Below are positions 42,071-45,846 of a DNA stretch of 64,000 nucleotides, in pieces. A program made the position numbers and the translations under genes. Within the stretch, counting starts at the first letter, position 1; the number at the start of each line of letters is the position of its first letter. Below the pieces are notes generated by a model. The model was not told where the DNA came from and ran no database searches. It saw only the letters and a list, made by a program, of their open reading frames with translations. Source of the DNA: Spirochaetia bacterium (GTDB taxonomy: Bacteria; Spirochaetota; Spirochaetia; Treponematales; Rectinemataceae); assembly GCA_029975555.1 (NCBI GenBank), contig JARKOY010000079.1:62001-126000 (forward strand), written 5' to 3'.

Positions 42071-42424
42071 ATGCGCGCTACCGAAATTGCCCACATTATC
42101 AATGCAGAAATCATTACAGGAAAAGACCTGGCTGACAATCTCGATATCGGGACCGCCTGTGGCTCAGACCTTATGAGCGACGTCATCGCCTTCGTCAAAG
42201 AGCGTGTGGCGTTACTCACCGGCCTCACCAACCCTCAGGTTCTGCGTACCGCCGACTTGATGGATATACGCCTGATTATTTTTGTCAGGGGCAAAAAGCC
42301 TTCTGAAGAAATGATCCAAATGGCTCGGGAACAAGGGATCGTGCTCATGAGGACTCGCGACAGCATGTTCGTAGCCTGCGGCAAGCTCTACCAAGCCGGA
42401 ATAAAAGGAGACTCTTCATATTAA
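42071..42424 (+). CDS. DRTGG-domain protein
   Basis: A 117-residue protein resembling a stand-alone DRTGG domain, the segment also found in phosphotransacetylases and in regulatory proteins beside Fe-S hydrogenase homologues. The visible core is EIAHIINAEIITGKDL, then VALLTGLTNPQVLRTADLMD, a DIRLIIFVRGKKP strand and RTRDSMFVACGKLY. AGGAG precedes the ATG. It is first of a three-gene module with an anti-sigma-like HATPase and a hydrogenase-like protein, so a signalling or allosteric role is likely. Confidence 0.72.
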   Translation: MRATEIAHIINAEIITGKDLADNLDIGTACGSDLMSDVIAFVKERVALLTGLTNPQVLRTADLMDIRLIIFVRGKKPSEEMIQMAREQGIVLMRTRDSMFVACGKLYQAGIKGDSSY

Positions 42425-42459
42425 AGATACATCAATGCATACAAGAAGGAATCGTCGCC

Positions 42460-42885
42460 GTGATCATTGAATACACCATTCCCCGGTTGGACTTCTCCGC
42501 CGCAGGAAAGGCCTCCACCGACATGAAACGCCGCTTGACCCAGCTTGGCCTACCGCCGGCCCTCATCAAAAGAGTCGCCATCGCGATGTATGAGGCCGAG
42601 ATGAACATCGCCATTCACGGGGGCGGAGGACGAGCAGAGGTCGAAATCTCTCACGATGGGATAATGACTCGTTTCATCGATCATGGCCCAGGTATCGCCG
42701 ACATCGAGCTCGCGATGCAAGAAGGATATTCGACTGCTCCGGAAGAAATCCGCGACATGGGATTCGGGGCAGGCATGGGCTTGCCCAACATGAAAAAAAA
42801 CGCCGATGAGCTTATTATTCAAAGCGAACTCAACAAAGGAACAACGGTGCAGATGTACTTTAAACTTCCTGTAGGAGAACAGTAA
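42460..42885 (+). CDS. Anti-sigma regulatory factor-like HATPase (serine kinase type)
   Basis: GHKL-fold ATP-binding protein (141 aa) of the RsbW/SpoIIAB type. The N-box YEAEMNIAIHGGG and the G1/G2 boxes IDHGPGIADIELAMQEG and MGFGAGMGLPNMKKNADEL are visible. Such proteins bind and phosphorylate partner proteins in partner-switching systems. It has no histidine kinase dimerisation domain. The start is GTG with AAGGA about 10 nt ahead. It abuts the hydrogenase-like gene directly (stop then GTG), so output may be controlled by Fe-S redox state. Confidence 0.85.
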   Translation: MIIEYTIPRLDFSAAGKASTDMKRRLTQLGLPPALIKRVAIAMYEAEMNIAIHGGGGRAEVEISHDGIMTRFIDHGPGIADIELAMQEGYSTAPEEIRDMGFGAGMGLPNMKKNADELIIQSELNKGTTVQMYFKLPVGEQ

Positions 42886-44241
42886 GTGAACTTTGAACCT
42901 ACAAATCAGACCCCGCACATACTCCATCCATTTCATTCGGTGTTGCTCGATGCCGACTTGTGCGTGGGCTGCACTACCTGCATTAAGTTTTGTCCGACCA
43001 AAGCCATTCGCGTCAGAAACGGAAAAGCAAAAATTTTCGAAGACCGCTGTATCGATTGCGGCGAATGTATCCGCAGATGCCCCAAGGGGGCAAAAAAAGC
43101 GGTCTCGGACCCCCTCTTCGTGATGGATGCATACGATATCAAAGTCGCGCTCCCTGCTCCTTCTCTCTATGCCCAATTCGGCACTGCCTACGCTCAAGAA
43201 AATATTTTCAATGCACTACTCTCCGCAGGATTCGACGAAGTGTTCGACGTGGCATGGGGGGCCCTCGTCGTTACGGAGATGACGCGCGACATCCTTGCTC
43301 ACGAAGCACTGCGGCCCCGCATTTCAAGCGCCTGTCCCGTCGTCGTTCGCCTCATTCAACAGCGATTTCCAAGCCTGATTCCCAATCTTATGCCTATACT
43401 TCCCCCTTCGGAAATCGCCGCCCGAGAGGCTCGAAGAAGGCTTGGCGCTTCATCACAGAAGATTGGAATCTTCTTTCTCAGCCCTTGTACTGCAAAGGTG
43501 ACCTCTGTGCGGGCTCCGCTGGGATATGAAGAATCTGCGATCGATGCGGTATTTTCGTTTGGGGATATATACGCCACGCTCAAGCGTGCGCTCGAATCTC
43601 CCCCAATCCCCGGAAGACCGAACGACGAGGACACCGCATCCGCGTTCGATCATTGCGCACAGAAGGGATGGCGCGAGAAACAACACCCCCGTCGCTTGCC
43701 GATCATGAAACACCTCGAACCCGGCATGGGATGGGCTCGATCGGATGGCGAGCTCGATGCGCTTCAGATCGAAAATGCGGTGTCGGTCGACGGCATTTCC
43801 AACGTCATCGACCTTTTCGAAGCCATCGAAAACGGCAACATCGACTCAATCCAGTACATTGAAGCCCTCGCATGTCCAGGAGGCTGTGTGGGAGGTCCCA
43901 TGGCCGTGGAAAACCCCCACATTGCACGAGCCACCATGCGCCAGCGATATCAACATCCTTTCGAACAAGGCACCCCCCCTTCTCCCGAGCTCCCCACGAG
44001 AGAACAAGCGCACAAGACCTTCCTGTGGACAAAACCATTAGTTCCCAATCCGGTGCTGGTGCTGGATACCGATCTATCGAAGGCTTTACAGATGGCCGAA
44101 CACATCGAACACATAAGGAAACAGCTGCCCGGAATCGATTGCGGAGCCTGCGGGGCCCCCGATTGCGATGCCTTTGCAGAGGACATCGTGCGCAATTTGA
44201 GTTCTGTCGAAGAATGCCGACTTTTAACGCGTTCGACATAG
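42886..44241 (+). CDS. [FeFe]-hydrogenase-like Fe-S protein, putative sensor
   Basis: Protein of 451 aa with two N-terminal 4Fe-4S ferredoxin motifs (Cys26, 29, 32, 36 and 55, 58, 61, 65), a hydrogenase H-cluster-type domain, and a C-terminal 4Fe-4S domain (Cys419, 422, 427, 444; GIDCGACGAPDC). The H-cluster motifs are altered but keep the four ligand cysteines: SSACP (Cys150) for TSCCP, SPCTAK (Cys201), and ALACPGGCVGG (Cys330, 334). The cysteine used for proton transfer in catalytic hydrogenases is Ala149 here. Such proteins are thought to sense H2 or redox state. GTG start with AGGAG. No maturation genes (hydE/F/G) are in the window. Confidence 0.85.
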   Translation: MNFEPTNQTPHILHPFHSVLLDADLCVGCTTCIKFCPTKAIRVRNGKAKIFEDRCIDCGECIRRCPKGAKKAVSDPLFVMDAYDIKVALPAPSLYAQFGTAYAQENIFNALLSAGFDEVFDVAWGALVVTEMTRDILAHEALRPRISSACPVVVRLIQQRFPSLIPNLMPILPPSEIAAREARRRLGASSQKIGIFFLSPCTAKVTSVRAPLGYEESAIDAVFSFGDIYATLKRALESPPIPGRPNDEDTASAFDHCAQKGWREKQHPRRLPIMKHLEPGMGWARSDGELDALQIENAVSVDGISNVIDLFEAIENGNIDSIQYIEALACPGGCVGGPMAVENPHIARATMRQRYQHPFEQGTPPSPELPTREQAHKTFLWTKPLVPNPVLVLDTDLSKALQMAEHIEHIRKQLPGIDCGACGAPDCDAFAEDIVRNLSSVEECRLLTRST

Positions 44242-44403: not shown

Positions 44404-45846
44404 TTGAATAAGAAGGATTTTCCTCACATCCACTTCTATGACCAGGATTTTGTCGACGTCTATGACAGAACCTGGGCCTGGATTGCTGATTGCTGGACAA
44501 CCGGAGGTAGCCAGACAAAAATCAGCAAAATCAAATTTTTCTACTATCCTGAGCGGAAAAGACTCGATTTCCTCGAACAGGTTTTTTCCAGTTTTTTTCT
44601 CGTCTACAGCAATCGAATCTACTCTGCATCGAATGGACTCGATGCGCTGTATGCACTTCAGGAGCCCGATGGGGCAATCCACACCGCCTACGACATCGAG
44701 ACAGGCGCACCCATTCTGCCGCCAGACAACCCCCTGGGAGTAACGCTTCCTCTCCTCGCGTGGGCCGAGTTCAATCTCTACCACAAGACGGCCAATAAAA
44801 AACGCGTTAAGGAAGTCATGCCTGTGCTCAGCAAACACTACAAATGGCTCGAGGCGCATTTCAAAATGCCGAACGGCCTCTTCGCGACGCCACTGTCCTC
44901 GACAGGCATGGAAAACAGCCCGCGCACCGATGTGCGATACTTCATCGATTTCAATGCCACCATGGCAATGAACGCACTCTATCTTTCTGCGCTGGGAGAC
45001 ATCTTGAACGACAAAGACGCCTCATTTCAGTACAAAAGAGACTATTTCTCGATAAAAACAAGAATAAATTCAAAAATGTGGAATGCCGAAGACGGTTTCT
45101 ACTACGACCTCGATGAGCACGAAAATCAGATTCCCATAAAAACCCTTGGGACATATTGGCTTCTGCTCGCCGAAATACCAAACGAAGAGCGCGCCGAGAA
45201 ACTTGTGGCAAAACTTAAGGATCCTCAGTGCTTCGGCACCGAGAACCCCTTCCCTTCTCTCTCGGTCGACCACCCCGCCTTTGATAAAAAGGGGCAGGGC
45301 TTTTGCGGCAGCGTGTTCCCCTGGCTCACCTTCATGGTCATTAAAGGCTTGGAAAAATATTACTTCTACGAACTTGCCCGAGATTCGGCGATACGCCACC
45401 TCTATTACATTCTCGATTCGATGCACAGCAACGATCACGAAGGAGGTCGGCACAACAGCCGACCCACCGTGTGGAGCGCATACCAACCGATGAACGAGGG
45501 AAAAGCAGTCTGGGACGGGCACCCCGATTGGCCGCTGCCAAACCACTTCCCTTCAAACGGACTTTGCACGGTAACCCTCATTATCGAAAACATTATAGGG
45601 CTCTATATCTCCTTGCCCCGAAAGACCGTCGATTGGATTATCCCCAACCTCGAAGTCATGGGCATCGAAAATCTTTCCCTGAAGCGCAACATGATTACCA
45701 TTCTTTCGAGCAAATCCGGCCGCGGATGGGAGATCCATATGGAGAGCGAAAAATTGTATTACTTTACTATCAATGTGCTGGGCAAAAAGAAAAAAACGCT
45801 CCCCATTCCTTCGGGCAAGTGCTCAATGCTCATCGACAAGATTTAA
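44404..45846 (+). CDS. Alpha/alpha-barrel glycoside hydrolase (trehalase/GH63-like)
   Basis: Cytoplasmic protein of 480 aa without signal peptide, with the sequence habit of the (alpha/alpha)6 glycosidases: LPLLAWAEFNLYHKT, the KTLGTYWLLLAEIPNEERAEKL segment, GFCGSVFPWLTFMVIKGLEK, and SAYQPMNEGKAVWDGHPD. These recall the mannosylglycerate hydrolase / GH63 / trehalase group. The start is TTG with GAGGG about 9 nt before it. Substrate unresolved: an alpha-glucoside or mannosyl compound. It stands alone after its promoter. Confidence 0.75.
   Translation: MNKKDFPHIHFYDQDFVDVYDRTWAWIADCWTTGGSQTKISKIKFFYYPERKRLDFLEQVFSSFFLVYSNRIYSASNGLDALYALQEPDGAIHTAYDIETGAPILPPDNPLGVTLPLLAWAEFNLYHKTANKKRVKEVMPVLSKHYKWLEAHFKMPNGLFATPLSSTGMENSPRTDVRYFIDFNATMAMNALYLSALGDILNDKDASFQYKRDYFSIKTRINSKMWNAEDGFYYDLDEHENQIPIKTLGTYWLLLAEIPNEERAEKLVAKLKDPQCFGTENPFPSLSVDHPAFDKKGQGFCGSVFPWLTFMVIKGLEKYYFYELARDSAIRHLYYILDSMHSNDHEGGRHNSRPTVWSAYQPMNEGKAVWDGHPDWPLPNHFPSNGLCTVTLIIENIIGLYISLPRKTVDWIIPNLEVMGIENLSLKRNMITILSSKSGRGWEIHMESEKLYYFTINVLGKKKKTLPIPSGKCSMLIDKI

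Follow-up and report, generated by a model that had tools for sequence, protein, structure and literature searches.

What does a hydrogenase-like iron-sulfur protein do when its gene directly follows those of a SpoIIAB-like ATPase and a DRTGG-domain protein? The question is raised by positions 42071-44241 of a 64,000-nucleotide stretch of Spirochaetia bacterium DNA (hereafter the window), whose source assembly comprises 3.27 Mb in 179 contigs at an estimated completeness of 99.17%. Its open reading frames place three genes in the same direction (+ strand, as for all coordinates below) in a tight operon: a DRTGG-domain protein (42071..42424; ATG at 42071, stop ending at 42424, 117 aa; PF07085, 27 bits against a Pfam cut-off of 25.2), a SpoIIAB/RsbW-like single-domain HATPase (42460..42885; GTG at 42460, stop ending at 42885, 141 aa; HATPase_c 38.1 bits and HATPase_c_2 35.5 bits, both above cut-off) and an [FeFe]-hydrogenase-type protein, HydS (42886..44241; GTG at 42886, stop ending at 44241, 451 aa). 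An AGAAGGA element lies upstream of the HATPase start, and the GTG of HydS directly follows the HATPase stop with zero gap. A preliminary description of the locus had reported this arrangement, an RsbW-type fold for the middle gene and, in HydS, two Fer4 motifs, four ligand cysteines, an alanine in SSACP and an extra C-terminal 4Fe-4S domain; every tested detail proved accurate. From these sequences we consider it probable that HydS is a sensor of the group D [FeFe]-hydrogenase type and that the two genes before it code for the proteins through which it signals.

Group D proteins are described in the available text of PMC8163306 as having two N-terminal cluster motifs, a C-terminal Cx2Cx4Cx16C motif, no PAS domain and a lost Cys299, with Met353 replaced by serine or threonine and, in TamHydS, Met497 replaced by leucine. 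Window HydS contains two 4Fe-4S ferredoxin motifs in residues 19-66 (42940..43083; Fer4_10, 42.4 bits), an H-cluster domain in residues 87-338 (43144..43899; Fe_hyd_lg_C, PF02906, 117 bits) with ligands C150, C201, C330 and C334, and a C-terminal 4Fe-4S domain of the form Cx2Cx4Cx16C running from C419 to C444 (44125..44220; PF04060, 44.4 bits), all above the Pfam cut-offs. In alignment, SSACP (residues 147-151; 43324..43338) places Ala149 at the position of the proton-relay Cys299, SPCTAK (residues 199-204; 43480..43497) places Ser199 at the M353 position and also holds ligand C201 and Lys204, the K358 equivalent, and ACPGGC (residues 329-334; 43870..43887) holds C330 and C334 and is preceded by Leu328 at the M497 position. 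No PAS domain was matched by Pfam, and only a few residues follow the Cys4 motif. The four H-cluster ligands and the four C-terminal cysteines are invariant in a 36-row alignment (A4), all rows of which, including T. wiegelii (L069), are 43-51% identical to window HydS. Furthermore, S286, E289, D302 and E326 match, with identical spacing, S249, E252, D265 and E289 of TamHydS, which form a proton path proposed for group D alone (PMC10407848, as available). With every published sequence feature present, the window protein is, as judged from its sequence, a group D (M2e) [FeFe]-hydrogenase of the TamHydS kind. Group D genes frequently, though not necessarily, share an operon with a group A hydrogenase; the gene of window HydS does not.

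Phylogeny and structure prediction agree with this assignment. In a 26-row tree, which the tool flagged for long branches that meet, window HydS falls within a 15-row clade (support 100/100) that includes proteins of Thermoanaerobacter, Acetivibrio, Anaerosolibacter, Papillibacter and Sumerlaeota, and the genome's own group A, group-B-like and group C paralogues fall apart from it. The AlphaFold model of HydS (pLDDT 87.5) finds [FeFe]-hydrogenases as its best PDB matches.

Other hydrogenases were observed in this genome and its order. A group A HydA in which TSCSP replaces TSCCP is present at L001 (G000:C167) and in T. wiegelii (L069:13748-15490); the idea that TSCSP at L001 marks a lost ligand was dropped, as T. 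wiegelii HydA has it too, and no conclusion was drawn. Four genomes in 1-2 contigs and 99% complete (L140-L143; G002, G006, G059, G063) encode a group-B-like [FeFe]-hydrogenase of 496-508 aa with TTSCCP, PCLAK and CEGGC, and all four are missing from the match lists of HydE, HydF and HydG. In three further genomes absent from the maturase lists (L145-L147; G055, G047, G032), a related protein keeps PCLAK and the TSCCP-type motif was not found, so its active site has possibly decayed. The group-B-like motifs were read by pattern in 8 of 15 regions, and 11 of those 15 were re-examined.

The order of the three genes was compared across relatives. Within the same order, the HATPase gene lies directly upstream of HydS in 30 of 30 loci and DRTGG lies upstream in 28 of them. 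Among the best 80 of 557 relatives, a sample biased towards close relatives, manual counts place a HATPase upstream in 76 of 79 assessable loci (L131 left out) and DRTGG upstream in 71 of 77 (L109, L116 and L131 left out); the two samples overlap, L056 being apparently G096 and L084 apparently G049. Three loci among these best 80 (L072, L074 and L126) have DRTGG and HydS with no HATPase within the fetched flank, indicating that the HATPase is not strictly required. The ten-gene operon of T. wiegelii reads DRTGG, HATPase, HydS, a second DRTGG, a PHP protein, a 2Fe-2S thioredoxin-like protein, a second HATPase, a 121-aa protein without family match, HydB and HydA. In most loci from Firmicutes (for example L069:9306-9638), the gene of group D HydS is followed by those of another, diverged DRTGG protein and a PHP-domain protein.

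In Firmicutes the module is often a neighbour of hydABC, whereas in the window it stands alone. A hydA-like gene (>38% identity over >100 residues) occurs within the fetched flank in 38 of the best 80 of 557 relatives and in none of the 14 loci among them with a spirochaete title; HydA entries ~560-1260 bases "downstream" at 22-30% identity represent self-matches of HydS and were disregarded. Contig C36 carries the hydBA operon of the window genome, which includes a second HATPase of its own. In many spirochaete loci (the comparison covers loci through L155) the module has recR upstream and a glycosidase-like gene downstream, as it does in the window, where the latter gene starts at 44404; this constant position argues that the spirochaete module is an inherited fixture. 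Against three congeners without maturases, dN/dS of HydS is 0.061-0.088, with similar values for the HATPase and DRTGG genes, and HydS is thus under purifying selection. Recurrence of the gene order in Spirochaetota, Bacillota and one Sumerlaeota locus, together with the low dN/dS of HydS, indicates that the module reflects more than chance. The conserved position of HATPase and DRTGG upstream of HydS makes both strong candidates, on genomic grounds, for the partner sought for TamHydS-type proteins.

The closest solved structure to the HATPase is SpoIIAB (1til; E=7e-9 in the PDB search, 1e-12 with a profile), and RsbW is matched more weakly. Residues E45, N49, D74, G76, G78, G101-G105, G107 and N110 are invariant in 29 rows; since these form the nucleotide site, ATP binding is expected. 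The NCBIfam model for SpoIIAB equivalogs gives 51.7 bits (cut-off 135), and the HATPase is therefore not a SpoIIAB equivalog. The DRTGG protein is modelled with a pLDDT of 91.9, and its nearest fold is the DRTGG structure 2ioj (TM 0.82). Asp33 and Ser36, within SDLMSDV, are identical in 73 of 73 DRTGG sequences, and this invariance marks Ser36 as a possible site of phosphorylation or binding.

The preliminary description had pointed to hydEFG as a check, and none of the three could be detected in the window genome, though the active-site residues examined are intact: at 99.17% completeness HydG and HydE gave zero matches, and HydF gave matches to the GTPase domain alone, all below cut-off. These absences favour a reading in which HydS here holds 4Fe-4S clusters alone, without the di-iron subsite, and senses the redox state of ferredoxin instead of H2, which we regard as unlikely overall. 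Across 116 genomes of the order, HydG scores above cut-off in 36, HydE in 34 and HydF in 40. A group-D-like protein (E below 1e-50) is present in 42 of the 116; 13 of these also have HydE or HydG, partial HydG matches being counted as present, and 29 have neither, none of the 29 appearing in the HydF match list as read by eye. Among genomes at least 95% complete, 8 of the 18 with group D lack both HydE and HydG; against the 4Fe-4S-only reading, maturases are nevertheless somewhat commoner with group D (10/18) than without it (14/47; Fisher p=0.08), and maturase islands may be missed in metagenome bins. Within the best 80 of 557 relatives, HydG is above cut-off in 31 of 50 genomes checked, comprising 4 of 14 with a spirochaete title versus 27 of 36 others. 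Absence of maturases is thus common in spirochaetes, and part of it may reflect such missed islands.

The active site itself would fit continued use of the di-iron subsite. In a 27-row alignment (A1, covering 27 of the 30 order loci; L031, L039 and L040, missed by pattern, are absent), the ligands, the Lys358 equivalent and both path glutamates are identical in 7 maturase-plus and 20 maturase-minus rows, as if the di-iron site were still used, and true loss is disfavoured by this identity. Decay of the H-cluster ligands in maturase-minus genomes was rejected, as all ligands are kept in 27 of 27 rows, and motifs missing from a first pattern scan were artefacts of PCTSK and CPAGC variants. The window genome also encodes a HydA of group A in which every ligand motif is present, a further point against HydS holding only 4Fe-4S clusters. 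Purifying selection on HydS in maturase-minus genomes fits a sensor of ferredoxin redox state, and the dN/dS values against maturase-minus congeners speak against HydS being a mere relic. In two congeners (L170 and L171), hydG, hydE and hydF are clustered with a small TM1266-like gene, with an aspartase-like gene also present in L170; the differing surroundings suggest that the hydEFG cluster is mobile.

A second alternative concerns the output. In classical RsbW-type switching, HydS would control an anti-sigma kinase, the kinase would phosphorylate a STAS protein and a sigma factor would be released. The resemblance of the HATPase to SpoIIAB and, more weakly, RsbW is compatible with such a scheme, as is the presence of one SpoIIE-type PP2C in the genome. 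The preliminary description had suggested looking for an anti-anti-sigma or PP2C partner; a genome-wide search detected one STAS protein and one SpoIIE-type PP2C, neither of them at the module. The single STAS protein detected (divergent ones may be missed) is far off on another contig and reads VDFSTIEDIGPAGIG around the usual phospho-site, without a DSSG-type serine, which we take to be the usual phosphorylatable serine of STAS partner proteins. As the only STAS protein detected lacks this serine, classical partner switching is not supported. None of the ten T. wiegelii operon genes, one of which matched no family, has a STAS, PP2C or sigma family match, and the missed equivalog cut-off (51.7 bits versus 135) also counts against the scheme, leaving it distinctly improbable. 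Of the earlier inference, then, the genetic tie between a hydrogenase-type Fe-S sensor and a SpoIIAB-like ATPase is supported, and the STAS/sigma cascade is not.

The SpoIIE-type PP2C instead adjoins a group C HydS. At 258-263 kb of G000:C151 (L156), a group C HydS extended by a long C-terminal tail, the PP2C and a group-B-like hydrogenase form an hfsBCD-like group; ~180 residues behind the Cys4 motif of this HydS look PAS-like by eye, with no Pfam PAS match at 0.001. Available text on group C systems reports that the HfsC phosphatase adjoins a group C sensory hydrogenase (PMC11837493), that deletion of hfsB, from sister group C, alters fermentation and adhE expression (PMC5707799), and that a HATPase_C domain occurs inside group C1 proteins of Hydrogenedentota (PMC11406978).

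We know of no assembly role for SpoIIAB-like ATPases, and the operon has no partner electron-transfer subunit, both of which weigh against a catalytic role for HydS in which HATPase and DRTGG would serve as chaperones or assembly helpers. Reversible interconversion of H+ and H2 by TamHydS, albeit at rates reported as low (PMC8163306, as available), and conservation of the group D proton path in window HydS speak for that reading, which we nonetheless hold to be very unlikely.

Taken together, these results are consistent with a model in which a group D sensor signals through the proteins encoded beside it. HydS would equilibrate with H2 and/or the ferredoxin pool via its N-terminal clusters, with the H-cluster contributing where maturases exist. 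A conformational change would then reach the C-terminal Cys4 domain and affect how the SpoIIAB-like HATPase binds ATP or acts as a kinase; the HATPase in turn would bind or phosphorylate a co-encoded partner, most likely DRTGG, rather than a STAS anti-anti-sigma factor. The pathway might end at transcription, or act directly on hydrogenase or on enzymes of fermentation. By EPR, H2 is reported not to reduce the C-terminal cluster of TamHydS (PMC13104023, as available), which disfavours signalling through the redox state of that cluster. On the basis of its conservation, Ser36 of DRTGG is a candidate for phosphorylation. A more specific version, in which HydS without the di-iron subsite and HydEFG is a ferredoxin-redox sensor and the HATPase phosphorylates DRTGG Ser36, DRTGG replacing STAS in a three-part switch, is speculative and would, in our estimate, probably prove wrong.

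That proteins of this known family sense H2 or redox state has been proposed before: both the sensory role of group D and a flanking HATPase were already described in 2020 (PMC8163306, as available). The genetic tie between HydS and a SpoIIAB-like ATPase is supported here and extends this proposal by the TamHydS authors. A 2026 TamHydS paper, in its available text, describes the partner as unidentified and finding the interaction partner or partners as critical (PMC13104023). Within open-licence papers, our search found none joining an FeFe hydrogenase with DRTGG and, by title and start of abstract among the 15 of 57 matches listed, none on a group D hydrogenase with an anti-sigma-type ATPase. 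Conservation of the order across Spirochaetota and Bacillota thus provides two testable partner candidates, HATPase and DRTGG. Moreover, in the stand-alone spirochaete form the sensor occurs apart from hydABC and, in many assemblies, with no maturases detected, which gives a natural setting in which to tell H2 sensing from sensing of the ferredoxin redox state.

The closest known system is TamHydS of Thermoanaerobacter mathranii, known here from its papers, with its relative in T. wiegelii (L069) compared directly. TamHydS and window HydS share the domain order Fer4-Fer4-H-domain-Cys4, the absence of PAS, Ala/Ser/Leu at C299/M353/M497, the group D proton path and an adjoining HATPase. While the TamHydS type lies upstream of hydABC, the window module stands alone, hydEFG is undetected in its genome and DRTGG2-PHP genes are not directly downstream. 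Group C HydS/HfsB of Thermotoga, Ruminococcus and Thermoanaerobacterium have in common with window HydS the loss of C299, a C-terminal Cys4 and a proposed sensing role, but they differ in their PAS domain and adjoining PP2C, both lacking for window HydS. The HATPase shares with SpoIIAB and RsbW the single-domain Bergerat fold, the N-box Glu and Asn and an ATP-lid region; it differs from them in having no STAS or sigma gene nearby and in its equivalog score. Finally, the DRTGG protein adopts the fold of AF1212 and of the DRTGG part of the CBS-pyrophosphatase (TM 0.71-0.82), while, in contrast to those domains, it is free-standing and carries its own invariant SDLMSDV motif.
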